In this document: piece after piece, positions 56,407 to 63,153 of the stretch
Numbering within the stretch: position 1 is the stretch's first letter
Layout of the letters: the number at the start of each line of letters is the position of its first letter
From: Rhodospirillaceae bacterium bin65
GTDB lineage: Bacteria; Pseudomonadota; Alphaproteobacteria; Bin65
Assembly (NCBI GenBank): GCA_002238725.1
Contig: MPMX01000015.1
Coordinates: 1 to 64,000 of the forward strand
DNA length: 64,000 nt
Direction: 5' to 3'
The notes under the pieces: generated by a model
What the model saw: only the letters and a program-made list of their open reading frames with translations
Database searches by the model: none
What the model was told of the DNA's origin: nothing
Program-made: the position numbers and the translations under genes

Positions 56407-56700
56407 GGCTGGTGCGTCGATCTCCGGTGTTCGATAGCCGGCGGGCAGCCGGTTGCTTCTTCAGGATATGGCCGTGCAGGGCGTGTACCGGCATCCTCCT
56501 GCCTGTGCCGGAACGTCGCGGCTACGCGGACGCTGCCAGCCTACAGGACACGATCGGACGCCGAACCGCGCGATCTTCGGCGCAGTGGCTGGCCTGCATT
56601 ACGCCCGGTAATAGGTTATACGACGTTAATGCGCCGTACCGGCGGCGCGTCGCCGGGTGCCCGCGAAACTGCCCTGCAGCCTCATCGGACCGATCTCGTC
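56407..56700. other. Intergenic region upstream of glnD
   Basis: A 294-base gap between the unknown membrane protein (minus) and glnD (plus). Its only AT-rich patch is around 56609-56632 (GTAATAGGTTATACG), a possible -10 area for the glnD operon. A run-on of glnD to an upstream ATG at 56629 is less likely than the start at 56701. I see no gene here. Confidence 0.5.
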
Positions 56701-59478
56701 ATGGATTTTTCGAGTGCCGCCCCGATCACCAACCAACGCCGGGTCGTCGACCGGCGCGAACTTGTCGAGAAGCTCGATGCCGTTGCCGTGAAGATCGGCG
56801 ATCCGTCGGCCCTCCGCGCAGCGGTGCTCGCCGTGCTGAAGTCTGCGCTGGAGGCGGGCCGGGTCGAAATCCGGCGGCGTTTCGAACGCGAGGCCGATAC
56901 CGCTGCGCGCGGCCATCGGTGTGTCCAGGGCCACTGCTTCCTTGTCGATCAGATCGTCCGGGTCATCTACGACTTCGCCTACGAAAGGGTCTATCCGGTC
57001 GCCAACCCGACGGAGGGCGAAAAACAGGCAATCGTCGCGGTCGGCGGCTACGGCCGGGGCGAGCTGGCGCCCCAGTCCGATGTCGATCTCCTGTTTCTGT
57101 CGAACTGGAAGCTCACGCCCCATGCGGAGCAGATCGTCGAATTCCTGCTTTATACTTTGTGGGATCTCGGTCTCAAGGTCGGGCACGCGACCCGGTCGGT
57201 CGACGAGTGTATCCGGCTGGCGAAGTCCGATCTGACGATCCGGACATCGTTGCTGGAGGCCCGCTACCTGTGGGGCGATGCCGGCCTCTACCGCAGCCTG
57301 CGCCAGAAATTCCGCGATTTCACAGCCGCCGAGGGGACGAACGACTTTGTCACGCAAAAACTCGCGGAACGGGATGTGCGGCACGAGAAGATGGGCGACA
57401 GCCGCTATGTCCTGGAGCCCAACATCAAGGACGGCAAGGGCGGATTGCGCGATCTCCATACGCTGTTCTGGATCGCCAAGAATCTCTATCGGGTCGATGC
57501 GATCGGCGATCTGGTGGAACGCAACGTTTTTACCGACCAGGAGTCGGGGCTGTTCCGCAAGGCGCACGCATTCCTGACCACGGTCCGCTGCCATCTGCAC
57601 TATCTGACCGGCCGGCCCGAAGAACGCCTCACCTTCGATGTCCAGCCCGAGATCGCCCGGCTGATGGGCTATGGCGACCGGAAAGCCCAGCGCGGAGTCG
57701 AGCGCTTCATGCGCCACTACTATCTGGTTGCCAAAGATGTCGGCGACCTTACCCGGATCTTTTGCGCTGCTTTGGAGGACGAGACCAAGCGGCGGCCCTG
57801 GGTCCGGCTGCCGGGGCGGCTGGGCGGCGAGCGTGAGTTCGGCGATTTCGTGGCCCGGTCCGGCCGGCTGAACACCAAGCACGAAAAGGTTTTCCGGCAG
57901 GACCCGGTGAACATTCTGCGGCTATTCGAAATTGCCCAGGAGCAACGGATCGATGTCCATCCGGCCGCGCTCCGGCAGGTTACGCAGTCGCTGAAATCGA
58001 TCGACCAGGCGGTTCGCCAGGACCCGGCGGCCAACGCCAGTTTCCTCGCCATGCTGACGTCGAGGAACGATCCAGCGGCGACGTTGCGCCGGCTCAACGA
58101 GGCCGGCGTGCTCGGCCGTTTCATCCCGGACTTCGGCCGGGTCGTCGCCCAGATGCAGCACGACATGTACCACGTCTTTACGGTCGACGAACATTCGATC
58201 CGGGCGATCGGCCTGCTGCACCGGATCGAGGCCGGCGATCTTGCCGAAGATCACCCGCTGGCGACCGGGATCGTCCACAAGGTCGCCTCGCGCCGCGCGC
58301 TCTATGTCGCCGTGCTGATGCACGATATCGCCAAGGGACGCGGCGGCGATCACTCCATACTCGGGGCCGAGTTGGCGCTGGACCTGTGCCCCCGGTTCGG
58401 GCTGGACGACGAGGAGACGGAAACCGTGTCCTGGCTCGTCCGGTACCACCTGACGATGAGCAACACGGCGCAGAAACGCGATATCGACGACCCGAAGACG
58501 ATCCGGGATTTTGCCGATCACTGCCAGTCTCCCGAGCGGCTGCGCCTCCTGCTGGTCCTGACCGTCGCCGACATGCGGGCGACCGGGCCGTCGGTGTGGA
58601 ACGGCTGGAAGGCGGCGCTGCTGCGAGACCTCTATTACCGGACCGAAGAACTGCTCAGCGGCAGCGTCGGGGCCGACGGCGTCGCGGCGCGGGTGGCGCG
58701 GGCAAAGGATGCCGTGGCGGATCGGCTGGCGGACTGGCCGGCCGAAGAAATCGATGCCTATCTGTCGCTCGGCTACACCGCCTATTGGCTGTCGCTCGAC
58801 AGCGCGACCCATGCCCGCCACGCCGCGCTGACGCAGAAGGCGCACCGGGACAAAGCGGAAATTTCCATCGATGTCGGGATCGACGAAAAGCGCTCGGTGT
58901 CGGAGGTTACGGTCTATACGCCGGACCATCCGGGCCTGTTTTCCCAGATTGCCGGCGCCATGGCGCTGTTCGGTGCGTCGATCGTCGAGGCGCGCATCTT
59001 CACCCTGGCGAACGGCCATGCGCTGGATATCTTCACGATCCAGAATGCGGCCGGCAAGGCAATCGCCGATCCGGCCGATCTGGACCGGCTGAAGACCCGC
59101 ATCGCCGGTAGTCTGACCGGCAAGTTGCGGCCCTGGCGGGAACTGGTCGGCAGGGAATCCCTGCCTCGTCGTGCGCGCGACGTGTTCGAAGTGCCGCCGC
59201 GCGTCCTGATCGACAACACCGCGAGCAACTTCTTCACTGTCATCGAGGTCAACGGCCGCGACCGGCCCGGCCTGCTCCATGACGTGACCCGCGCGCTCAC
59301 CGAGAGCGGCATGCAGATCGGCACGGCCAAGATTTCGACCTATGGCGAACGCGTTGTCGACGTTTTCTATGTCAAGGATGTGTTCGGCATGAAGATCGCC
59401 AACCCGCAGAAGCAGGACGAGGTGCGCAAGGCCGTCCTGGCATCCCTCAGCACGGCGCCGGAGTATGCGGCGGCATAA
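56701..59478 (+). CDS. glnD: PII uridylyltransferase / uridylyl-removing enzyme
   Basis: Bifunctional sensor that uridylylates or deuridylylates PII proteins in response to glutamine. The 925 residues contain the nucleotidyltransferase site GGYGRGELAPQSDVDLLFL, a HD domain (VLMHDIAKGRGGDHS), and two C-terminal ACT domains (SEVTVYTPDHPGLFSQIAGAM and FTVIEVNGRDRPGLLHDVTRAL). The start at 56701 (MDFSSAAPITNQRRVVDRREL) fits alphaproteobacterial GlnD. It heads a run of plus-strand genes through trpS. Confidence 0.97.
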   Translation: MDFSSAAPITNQRRVVDRRELVEKLDAVAVKIGDPSALRAAVLAVLKSALEAGRVEIRRRFEREADTAARGHRCVQGHCFLVDQIVRVIYDFAYERVYPVANPTEGEKQAIVAVGGYGRGELAPQSDVDLLFLSNWKLTPHAEQIVEFLLYTLWDLGLKVGHATRSVDECIRLAKSDLTIRTSLLEARYLWGDAGLYRSLRQKFRDFTAAEGTNDFVTQKLAERDVRHEKMGDSRYVLEPNIKDGKGGLRDLHTLFWIAKNLYRVDAIGDLVERNVFTDQESGLFRKAHAFLTTVRCHLHYLTGRPEERLTFDVQPEIARLMGYGDRKAQRGVERFMRHYYLVAKDVGDLTRIFCAALEDETKRRPWVRLPGRLGGEREFGDFVARSGRLNTKHEKVFRQDPVNILRLFEIAQEQRIDVHPAALRQVTQSLKSIDQAVRQDPAANASFLAMLTSRNDPAATLRRLNEAGVLGRFIPDFGRVVAQMQHDMYHVFTVDEHSIRAIGLLHRIEAGDLAEDHPLATGIVHKVASRRALYVAVLMHDIAKGRGGDHSILGAELALDLCPRFGLDDEETETVSWLVRYHLTMSNTAQKRDIDDPKTIRDFADHCQSPERLRLLLVLTVADMRATGPSVWNGWKAALLRDLYYRTEELLSGSVGADGVAARVARAKDAVADRLADWPAEEIDAYLSLGYTAYWLSLDSATHARHAALTQKAHRDKAEISIDVGIDEKRSVSEVTVYTPDHPGLFSQIAGAMALFGASIVEARIFTLANGHALDIFTIQNAAGKAIADPADLDRLKTRIAGSLTGKLRPWRELVGRESLPRRARDVFEVPPRVLIDNTASNFFTVIEVNGRDRPGLLHDVTRALTESGMQIGTAKISTYGERVVDVFYVKDVFGMKIANPQKQDEVRKAVLASLSTAPEYAAA

Positions 59479-59512
59479 TTTGTTTGACGAAAATAAAAAT
59501 TTGTGCAACAAA
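59479..59512 (+). promoter_or_regulatory. Candidate promoter/operator of the toxin-antitoxin pair
   Basis: The 56-base gap after glnD is much richer in A/T than its surroundings. TTGACG (59484-59489) may be a -35. The arms TTTGTT (59479-59484) and AACAAA (59507-59512) form an inverted repeat around it. This looks like an autoregulated toxin-antitoxin operator; no -10 can be fixed with confidence. Confidence 0.45.
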
Positions 59513-59534
59513 CGCCGCCGAAAGAGAGGGTGCC

Positions 59535-59873
59535 ATGGCTGAATCGATCACGATCACGATGGCCCAGTTGCGGGAATTGCTGGCGGCGGTCGGCGTCGCG
59601 GTTTCCGACGATACCGCCCGCGATGCCGTATACGGCATGGGGATGGCCGATAAAGGCGTGGCGTATGTTGTCGAATCGGCATCCAAGGACCGCCGGATTG
59701 CGGCGCGGATCGACGATGTCCTCTATGAACGGGCGCGGGCGGCCACAGGCTTTGCCCGGGATTCCGATCTGGTGCGGGCCGGGCTGGAGGCGCTGGCCGA
59801 TCCCGACGGGTTCGGTTCGTGGCTCGCGGCCCGGCGCGGTTCGCTGCCGCGGGACTTCACGATCGATCTGTGA
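59535..59873 (+). CDS. Probable antitoxin, RHH-like
   Basis: A 112-residue protein. Its C-terminal half (RIAARIDDVLYERARAATG, then a second helix ARDSDLVRAGLEALADPDGF) resembles the strand-helix-helix of ribbon-helix-helix antitoxins, and the end SLPRDFTIDL is a plausible toxin-binding tail. The N-terminal half is unlike known antitoxins. The ATG at 59535 follows GAGAGGG. Its stop overlaps the next gene's GTG (GTGA at 59870-59873), so toxin translation depends on it. The assignment rests mostly on the paired PIN protein. Confidence 0.65.
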   Translation: MAESITITMAQLRELLAAVGVAVSDDTARDAVYGMGMADKGVAYVVESASKDRRIAARIDDVLYERARAATGFARDSDLVRAGLEALADPDGFGSWLAARRGSLPRDFTIDL

Positions 59874-60472
59874 GCCTGACCGCCGACCTGGCGCGCTGGC
59901 AGCGCCGCATCCGGCCGGAGAAGCGCCGAACGCCCCTCAGCTTCAGGGACCGTTCGGCGCTTCCGTTCTTTCCGGCGGCAGGCCTCTCGGGGCCGGTCAT
60001 GCTGGATACCTGCGCCTATATCGATGCCCTGGCCGGGCGGATGCCGCTGGCCCTGCAGGCGCTGCTGCCGGGCCGCCGCCATTTCCACTGCACCGTCTGC
60101 CTCGGCGAACTGGCCTTCGGATTGGGCGCTATGGCGCCGGAGGCCGCGCATGCCGATCGCTCCAGGGCGGCGATTGGAGACTTGCTGGGCCGGATCGAAA
60201 CGCGGAGAACCAGCGCACTCCCGGCATCGGGCTGGATGGCGGCCGGCCTGATCGCGGGCATGCTGGCGCGGCTGCAGGGGGGCAGCCGGGCCGATCGCCA
60301 GCGATTCTATGCCGACGCCGCGATCTATCTGACCGCCCGGGCAACGGGCGCGACGCTCGTTACGGCGAACTGGCGCGACTTCGACCTGATCGACCAGGTG
60401 GCGGCCGACGGGCAGGCCGGCGCCCGGCTGGTCTACTACGTGCCGGAGACGGTGCGGGCCGGCGCATCATGA
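59870..60472 (+). CDS. PIN-domain toxin-like protein (VapC-type)
   Basis: A 200-residue protein. From about residue 42 it shows a PIN nuclease domain: Asp46 in PVMLDTCAYID, Glu80 in CLGELAFG, Asp149 in YADAAIYLTARATGATLVTANWRDFDLI and Asp170 in that last block, the four acidic residues expected to bind magnesium in RNases such as VapC. A 40-residue basic N-terminal extension is unusual. It starts at GTG 59870, overlapping the antitoxin stop, and its TGA overlaps the murJ ATG (60469-60472). The RNA target is unknown. Confidence 0.75.
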   Translation: MSLTADLARWQRRIRPEKRRTPLSFRDRSALPFFPAAGLSGPVMLDTCAYIDALAGRMPLALQALLPGRRHFHCTVCLGELAFGLGAMAPEAAHADRSRAAIGDLLGRIETRRTSALPASGWMAAGLIAGMLARLQGGSRADRQRFYADAAIYLTARATGATLVTANWRDFDLIDQVAADGQAGARLVYYVPETVRAGAS

Positions 60473-62019
60473 AGCTGCTTCGATCCACCGCCATCGTGGC
60501 ATTCTGGACCCTCGCCAGCCGCATCCTCGGATTCGTGCGCGATATTCTGCTGGCGCACTATCTCGGCGCTGTCGGGGTCATCGAGGCGTTCATCGTCGCT
60601 TTCCGCTTCCCCAACATGTTCCGGCGGCTCGTCGCCGAAGGCGCCTTCGCCGCCGCCTTCGTCCCCATGTTCTCGAAACGGCTGGAGCAGGATGGCCGGC
60701 GCGAGGCGATGCTGTTCGCCGATCGGGTATTTTCCCTTCTGGTTATCGTCCTCGCGATATTCACCGTCATCGTCGAAATCTTCATGCCGCAGGCACTGCT
60801 GGTCGTTGCGCCCGGGTTCCACGCCGAGCGGCCGGAACTGTTCGATACCGCCGTCCTCCTGACCCGCCTGACCCTGCCCTACCTGCTGTGCATGGCGATC
60901 GTGGCGATGATGAGCGGAATGCTCAATTCGTCCTACCGGTTCGCCGCCGCCGCCGCCGCGCCGATCCTGCTCAATGTCCTGCTGATCCTCGGCCTTCTGT
61001 TCGCAAGGGACATGTTCGAGACGCCGGCCCATATGCTGGCCTGGGGCGTCGCCATTGCCGGCATCGGCCAGTATGTCTGGCTTGCCTGGGCCTGCCGCAG
61101 GGCCGGCATCGGCCTGCGCCTGCGCTGGCCTGAATTCACGCCGGCGGTCAAGCAGCTGTTGAAGCTGATGGTGCCCGGCCTGATCGCCGGCGGCGTGACC
61201 CAGATCAACATCCTGGTCGGCACGATCATCGGCACCTTCCTGACCGGCGTCGTTTCCTACATCCACTATGCCGACCGGGTGTACCAGTTCCCCCTTGGCC
61301 TGGTCGGCATCGCGATCGGCACGGCGCTGCTGCCGGAGTTGTCGCGCACCTTGCAGAGCGATGAAGCAAGCGCCAACAGGGTCCAGAACCGCGCCATCGA
61401 ACTGTCGATGCTGCTGACGCTGCCGGCGACCGCTGCGCTGATCGTTATCGCGCTGCCGCTCGTCACCGTGATGTTCCAGTATGGCAAATTCACGCCGGAC
61501 GCCGCCGCCGCCACGGCCTGGGCGCTGGCCGTCTTCGCGACCGGCCTGCCGGCCTTCGTGCTGATCAAAGTCCTGTCGCCCGGCTTCTTCGCCCGGCAGG
61601 ACACGCGCAGACCAATGATCTACGCCGTCGTTTCCATGATCGCGAATATGGGCCTTTCGCCCTTGCTGGTCTGGCCGCTCGGCGTCGGCTATCTGGGTAT
61701 TCCGATCGCCACGTCGATCGCCGCCTGGATCAACACCGGGCTGCTCATCTGGTTCTTGGTTCAGCGTGGCCATCTCACCCTCGATTCCCGCCTGCTGGCG
61801 CGGTTGCCGCGCTTCGCCTTCGCCGCGCTGGTCATGGCCGGCCTGCTCTGGCCGGCGGCCGACGCGCTGTGGCCGTGGCTCTCCGGCGAGGTCTGGCAGC
61901 GCGTTCTCGCGATACTGGCCGTCGTGATCGGCGGCGGTGCGGTCTATGCGGCGGCCTGCCTCCTGCTGCGCGCCGCCACGATCGGCGAGATGAAGGCGAT
62001 GCTGCGCCGTTCCGAATAG
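60469..62019 (+). CDS. murJ: Lipid II flippase MurJ
   Basis: Membrane protein that flips lipid II to the periplasm for peptidoglycan synthesis. The 516 residues have 14 hydrophobic segments and the family blocks AHYLGAVGVIEAFIVAFRFPNMFRRLVAEGAFAAAFVPMF and YADRVYQFPLGLVGIAIGTALLP. The ATG overlaps the PIN gene stop by 4 bases, so its ribosomes may come from the toxin gene. This essential-type function is thus placed downstream of a toxin-antitoxin pair, which is odd. Confidence 0.96.
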   Translation: MKLLRSTAIVAFWTLASRILGFVRDILLAHYLGAVGVIEAFIVAFRFPNMFRRLVAEGAFAAAFVPMFSKRLEQDGRREAMLFADRVFSLLVIVLAIFTVIVEIFMPQALLVVAPGFHAERPELFDTAVLLTRLTLPYLLCMAIVAMMSGMLNSSYRFAAAAAAPILLNVLLILGLLFARDMFETPAHMLAWGVAIAGIGQYVWLAWACRRAGIGLRLRWPEFTPAVKQLLKLMVPGLIAGGVTQINILVGTIIGTFLTGVVSYIHYADRVYQFPLGLVGIAIGTALLPELSRTLQSDEASANRVQNRAIELSMLLTLPATAALIVIALPLVTVMFQYGKFTPDAAAATAWALAVFATGLPAFVLIKVLSPGFFARQDTRRPMIYAVVSMIANMGLSPLLVWPLGVGYLGIPIATSIAAWINTGLLIWFLVQRGHLTLDSRLLARLPRFAFAALVMAGLLWPAADALWPWLSGEVWQRVLAILAVVIGGGAVYAAACLLLRAATIGEMKAMLRRSE

Positions 62020-62121: not shown

Positions 62122-63153
62122 ATGAAACGCATCTTTTCCGGTATCCAGCCCTCCGGCGGGGTTACGCTCGGTAACTATCTCGGCGCGATCCGCAACTGGG
62201 CGCGGCTGCAGCACGAGGGCTTTCACTGCATCTATTGCATGGTCGATCTGCACGCGGTCACGGTTTGGCAGGAGCCGGCGCTGCTGGCCGACCAGACGCG
62301 ACAGGTGACCGCCGCCCTGGTGGCCTCGGGCATCGATCCGAAGGTTTCGGTCGTGTTCCATCAGTCGGCCGTGCCCGCCCACGCCCAGCTTGCCTGGATC
62401 TTCAATTGCGTCGTCCGGCTCGGCTGGATGAACCGGATGGCCCAGTTCAAGGAAAAGGCCGGCAAGGACCGGGAGAAGGCGTCCCTCGGCCTCTACGCCT
62501 ATCCCGCGCTGCAGGCCGCCGACGTGCTGCTCTACCATGCGACCCATGTGCCGGTCGGCGAGGACCAGAAGCAGCATGTCGAGTTGATGCGCGACATCGG
62601 GAACAAGTTCAACCACGACTTCGGCGTCGATTTCTTCCCGCCGCCCGAGGCGATGATCTTCGGCGGCGCGACCCGGGTGATGAGCCTGCGCGACGCGACG
62701 AAGAAGATGTCGAAATCCGATCCGTCGGACATGAGCCGCATCAACATGACCGACGATGCCGACGCCATCGCGCTCAAGATCCGCAAGGCGAAGACCGACC
62801 CGGAGCCGCTGCCGGGGCCGGACGTCGTCGGGCCGGACGGCGGGGTCAAGCCGGACGTCGAGGCGGCGCGGCCCGAGGCCTTCAATCTCGTGCGCATTTT
62901 CGCCACGTTGGCCGACCGGCCGGTCGCGGACGTGCTCGGCGAGTTCGAGGGCCAGGGCTTCGGCCGCTTCAAGCCGGCGCTCGCCGACCTTGCGATCGAT
63001 AAACTCGGCGCCATCAATGCCGAAATGCGCCGGCTGCTCGACGATCCGGCGGAGATCGACCGGGTGCTCGCCGACGGCGCGGAAAAGGCGCGCGGTATCG
63101 CCGATCCCATTCTGGCGGAAACCTACCGGATCGTGGGTTTCCTGAAAGCCTGA
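62122..63153 (+). CDS. trpS: Tryptophanyl-tRNA synthetase
   Basis: Class I synthetase for tRNA-Trp. The 343 residues show [16 protein letters not shown] (HIGH-like signature), the [27 protein letters not shown] substrate region and the [10 protein letters not shown] motif. The start at 62122 ([13 protein letters not shown]) is standard. The 102-base gap from murJ holds an inverted repeat (GCCGGCCCGG / CCGGGCCGGC, 62019-62028 and 62056-62065) of unknown role. It probably belongs to the glnD-murJ transcript. Confidence 0.97.

Follow-up and report, generated by a model that had tools for sequence, protein, structure and literature searches.

A putative toxin-antitoxin pair with a candidate operator directly upstream of murJ in six species of one alphaproteobacterial genus

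Gene organization between glnD and murJ

The window analyzed here, a stretch of 64,000 nucleotides, carries two small genes between glnD and murJ, with all four genes on the forward strand. The upstream neighbor glnD (positions 56629 to 59478, ending in TAA; N-terminal start unrefined) is followed by an AT-rich gap of 56 nt (43% GC) and then by a gene for a 112-amino-acid antitoxin (59535 to 59873, ATG start, TGA stop). This gene shares a GTGA (59870 to 59873) with the GTG start of a gene for a putative 200-amino-acid PIN-domain toxin (59870 to 60472), which in turn shares an ATGA (60469 to 60472) with the ATG start of murJ (60469 to 62019). murJ encodes the lipid II flippase and is single copy, with one match in its own genome; trpS starts downstream at 62122. 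A preliminary description of this DNA placed an RHH-like gene and a PIN gene between glnD and murJ, joined by GTGA and ATGA overlaps, and the open reading frames are exactly as it claimed. The first overlap is identical in all six species that carry the pair, while the ATGA of the window is replaced by GTGA in the other five, giving them GTGA at both junctions. ATGA and GTGA overlaps are frequent in bacterial operons and unsurprising by themselves; the significance of the arrangement comes from its conservation, its probable single gain and its putative operator, rather than from the overlaps alone. The description also held that the GC content of the pair is like that of its neighbors. This is true of the antitoxin gene (66%, compared with 65-66% for glnD, murJ, and trpS) but not of the PIN gene (72%), so the match is only rough.

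The pair belongs to an accessory toxin-antitoxin family

An AF2 model of the PIN protein, built from an alignment of 51 members, has a pLDDT of 92.4, and its best superposition is with FitB (2bsq, Z 12.6), with VapBC11 and other VapC structures at Z of about 11-12.5. In this model, the product of 59870 to 60472 has a PIN fold with FitB and VapC as its nearest structures, which bears out the earlier domain assignment. Curated models did not place the protein among VapC members: Pfam PIN (PF01850) scored 17.3 bits (E 0.0077; cut-off 23.6) and the NCBIfam VapC model NF047863 scored 11.8 bits (cut-off 140), both below cut-off. Acidic residues are found at D46, E80, D149, D170, and D172 and are conserved among the 51 relatives, with D46 and E80 invariant and D149 nearly so. 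Residue 149 is equivalent by fold to VapC Asp98, which has been named as an active-site residue (PMC3384007), and we infer RNase activity for the PIN protein. The toxin also has an N-terminal extension of ∼40 amino acids and a C-terminal tail of 10 amino acids (median of 3 in relatives) that reaches the murJ start; the tail is lineage specific and lacking in most relatives. Elsewhere, the same genome has 20 PIN family matches, 19 of them above cut-off, and is rich in PIN-type genes.

The antitoxin, aligned with 40 partners of PIN relatives, has an RHH-like core at about residues 54-90 and a C-terminal, toxin-binding-like tail that ends in DFTIDL. Its sequence pattern and two predicted helices fit an RHH protein; the AF2 model is of low confidence (pLDDT 64), profile searches gave no RHH profile match, and the antitoxin profile run against sequences of solved structures returned designed repeat proteins only, which is uninformative.

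A scan using one genome per species found 182 PIN relatives, of which 80 were kept. Many come from the Rhizobiales, sphingomonads, Acetobacteraceae, Methylobacteriaceae, and Caulobacteraceae, and 75 plasmid records carry a relative, annotated on plasmids as “VapC family toxin.” An even draw over the class Alphaproteobacteria gave a match in 4 of 223 genera. The family is accessory and patchy in alphaproteobacterial chromosomes and plasmids. At nearly all of the 80 kept loci, a small gene lies upstream of the PIN gene, overlapping it or directly adjoining it. The encoded partners combine an RHH-like core with a short motif at the C terminus that is made up of acidic and hydrophobic residues. 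Such near-universal pairing with an RHH-like partner argues for a coherent toxin-antitoxin (TA) family. The earlier reading of the window genes as a TA-type pair of RHH-like and PIN proteins is upheld by homology, by the pairing in relatives, and by the FitB/VapC-like model, which together leave the TA nature of the pair well supported. glnD or murJ is nearby at only four of the 80 loci, all from the window's genus.

A probable single gain in the ancestor of six species

The pair lies at glnD-murJ, in the same place and with the same junctions, in six of the seven species of the window's genus, and no other sampled genus has it at this position. In the seventh species (G006), the pair is missing and the gap from glnD to murJ is 71 nt. 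Two species from another genus of the family (G008 and G010) also have no pair, with gaps of 75 and 197 nt; in G009, another gene lies upstream of murJ. In a murJ protein tree, the six pair-bearing species fall apart from G006 and the outgroups with a support of 0.95. Together, this tree and the gaps in G006 and the outgroups indicate that the pair was probably acquired once, on the branch leading to the six species. The spacing across relatives, with gaps of 71-197 nt where there is no pair, indicates that it was inserted rather than ancestral, and the native glnD-murJ spacer is gone in the pair-bearing species. We rejected universality of the pair in the group because only six of the seven genus members have it, and recent transfer because the single gain predates the divergence of the six species. 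The view that the pair is not a recent arrival therefore holds, with a gain before the six species diverged and purifying selection since. The pairwise dS among these species reaches about 0.6. dN/dS is mostly 0.13-0.34 for the pair and 0.07-0.18 for murJ, values that place both antitoxin and PIN genes under purifying selection, weaker than that on murJ. There is some sign of recombination of the PIN gene within the genus, as G002 groups with G001/G003 in the PIN tree but is the sister of G004 in the glnD, murJ, and antitoxin trees. The relatives from this genus in the scan are metagenome-assembled genomes of uncultured Rhodospirillaceae or Alphaproteobacteria, one labeled Spongia_Bin9. They come from different assembly projects, and contigs span the whole glnD-trpS stretch, so the arrangement is not an assembly artifact.

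In other alphaproteobacteria, glnD and murJ had been described as usual direct neighbors. Adjacency is indeed common, but it is not universal: glnD lies at most 200 nt upstream of murJ in 17 of 34 sampled loci. Other genes, such as a TetR-like gene or an oppositely oriented MFS transporter gene, lie between the two at loci L138, L140, and L122. That different genes occur here suggests a site open to insertion.

A candidate operator shared across the family

The gap between glnD and the antitoxin gene holds an imperfect dyad, TGTTTGAC-N14-GTGCAACA (59481 to 59510, forward strand), which ends 24 nt before the antitoxin ATG, overlaps a -35-like element, TTGAC(A/G), and is a putative operator. Across the six species it takes the form TGTTTGAC-N14-GTGYAACA, with 15 of 16 arm positions invariant compared with 2 of 14 in the spacer. 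It is the sole such site in the genome, where a search allowing up to 2 mismatches found no further copies. The same dyad precedes distant antitoxins, for example, TGTTTGAC-N14-GTCAAACA at Phenylobacterium locus L077. Overall, 61 of 75 antitoxin upstream regions score at least 10, compared with 2-4% of shuffled or random controls; because the scoring rule was drawn up after some of the sequences had been seen, and because many loci are close relatives (Sphingobium), these counts overstate independence, though the matches are nonetheless diverse. Upstream of the antitoxins at L077, L047, L103, and other loci, the family dyad is roughly TGTYNRACA-N12-TGTYNRACA.

Inverted-repeat operators are usual for TA systems of this kind. 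In one example, the RHH protein FitA together with FitB binds 36-bp operator DNA as a tetramer of heterodimers (PMC3920265). The shared dyad is likely the operator throughout the family, on plasmids and chromosomes alike, and its occurrence before antitoxins across that family suggests that the module probably carried in its own control element. A consensus promoter scan scored no promoter, so the putative promoter is placed solely by the dyad and the TTGAC element. The dyad was absent from the preliminary description, which dwelt on translational overlap. It implies a transcriptional linkage, with murJ lying behind an autorepressed TA promoter; this linkage is at least as important as the overlap and is the newer and stronger point.

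Translation and supply of MurJ

MurJ, the cell wall lipid II flippase, is normally essential. A search for Amj did not find it. A Shine-Dalgarno-like stretch lies before the antitoxin gene (59518 to 59534, forward strand), with a computed anti-Shine-Dalgarno pairing of -8.3 kcal/mol. The corresponding value is -11 to -12 kcal/mol in four other species and -3.3 kcal/mol in G004, and thus pairing at the antitoxin is strong in five of the six species. The PIN and murJ starts, with only -3.6 to -6.6 kcal/mol, do not have a strong Shine-Dalgarno sequence. However, the sequence is also lacking at murJ of G006 (0.2 kcal/mol) and at trpS (1.9 kcal/mol), where there is no overlap at all, so its absence is no proof of dependence on reinitiation. 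We found no support for an RNA structure that masks the starts of PIN or murJ: their unpaired probabilities are 0.25-0.44, and murJ of G006, which lacks the pair, is alike (0.38). A crude consensus scan found no internal murJ promoter within the PIN gene, in keeping with the translational chain first proposed, although one may have escaped it. At synonymous sites near the junction with murJ, variability is reduced only slightly.

Given the sequence features, translational chaining of murJ to the toxin is plausible. murJ is probably expressed partly from the autorepressed TA promoter and by reinitiation, though read-through from glnD may supply most of its mRNA. Repression, the position of the promoter, reinitiation, and a dependence of the MurJ level on them are what we infer from this layout.

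How the arrangement may work

Our preferred explanation, which we hold to be rather probable, is that a TA module was inserted once and that murJ is now the third cistron of an autorepressed, reinitiating antitoxin-toxin-murJ unit. A type II module of the FitAB/VapBC kind, with its autoregulated promoter, would have entered glnD-murJ in the ancestor of the six species and replaced the native spacer, leaving murJ thereafter behind the antitoxin and toxin genes. The antitoxin-toxin complex would bind the dyad at 59481 to 59510 and repress the promoter, ribosomes would load at the antitoxin Shine-Dalgarno sequence, and termination-reinitiation at GTGA and then at (A/G)TGA would carry translation from antitoxin to PIN to murJ; read-through from glnD could provide further murJ mRNA. 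The sole MurJ supply would then be tied to transcription of the module, and a clean loss of the module would not be easily survived. This tie would explain its long retention.

It is also conceivable, if somewhat doubtful, that this was an ordinary TA insertion into a permissive intergenic site, that murJ is transcribed mainly by glnD read-through or from an undetected internal promoter, and that the overlaps have no regulatory meaning, having arisen incidentally when a deletion fused the toxin frame to the start of murJ. The frequency of (A/G)TGA overlaps in operons, the TetR-like or opposite MFS genes that some alphaproteobacteria have between glnD and murJ, a toxin tail length compatible with read-through to the next stop, and the 20 other PIN matches in the genome all fit such an insertion. 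However, six species at dS of up to about 0.6 have kept not only the arrangement but also the operator arms and the two overlaps, the native spacer is gone, and no promoter-like site was found within the PIN gene.

The toxin of G004 bears on what maintains the arrangement. Its PIN protein has a D149G substitution (FLAGAAIYL; L043:6001-6600) at a catalytic metal ligand, and operator, antitoxin, frame, and overlaps are all kept. This toxin may be dead while the rest of the arrangement persists, which weakens the idea that an active toxin maintains it; if D149G is confirmed, an active toxin is unnecessary for retention. The substitution also fits a pair domesticated as a regulator, with toxicity lost or fading, an autorepressor that sets murJ expression, and the PIN protein kept as a structural co-repressor, as does the fact that both genes are under purifying selection, though of a weaker kind than murJ. 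Yet D149G comes from a single metagenome-assembled genome, the PIN dN/dS of G004 is not strongly raised, and the other five pair-bearing species retain every acidic residue; we regard domestication as improbable. A stronger version of the preferred explanation, in which the module's own promoter and reinitiation chain made the sole lipid II flippase module dependent and antitoxin turnover releases the RNase and at the same time increases the MurJ supply, would amount to a positional addiction module. We consider this version speculative and, on balance, unlikely.

Why chromosomes retain TA pairs is debated. The present case can be dated: a pair whose family operator is recognizable captured the region upstream of a single-copy gene that is normally essential, and it has persisted there while six species diverged. 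This makes retention through capture of a neighbor's expression, rather than through toxicity, directly testable. If our explanation is true, lipid II flipping falls under TA autoregulation.

Comparison with known toxin-antitoxin systems

Of the known systems, FitAB of Neisseria gonorrhoeae (2bsq, 2h1c) is structurally the closest. The toxins share a PIN fold (Z 12.6, rmsd 3.4 over 136 residues, 15% identity), and in both systems an antitoxin, RHH-type in FitAB and RHH-like by sequence pattern in the window, lies upstream with an operator before it, putative in the window. Unlike FitB, the window toxin has the extra N-terminal segment of ∼40 amino acids and the C-terminal tail, and we know of no essential gene chained behind fitAB. 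VapBC systems with RHH forms of VapB, such as VapBC11, likewise consist of an antitoxin-toxin bicistron and a PIN protein with D/E/D residues; VapC Asp7, Glu42, and Asp98 have equivalents by fold in the window protein. In contrast to VapC, the window toxin is 60-70 amino acids longer, falls below the Pfam PIN and NCBIfam VapC cut-offs, and is linked to murJ. The relA-mazEF-mazG operon similarly embeds a TA pair among housekeeping genes, but its toxin and antitoxin folds differ from those of the window pair and its neighbors are not a single-copy cell wall flippase. In kis-kid (parD) of plasmid R1, antitoxin and toxin translation are coupled, in addition to autorepression (PMC3920265), but the coupling is not described as reaching a chromosomal housekeeping gene. 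Among the titles and abstracts listed in searches of the open literature, we found no TA pair linked in this way to murJ or to any other essential gene. Altogether, the pair is a known kind of TA system, and what is new is its unusual and old position.
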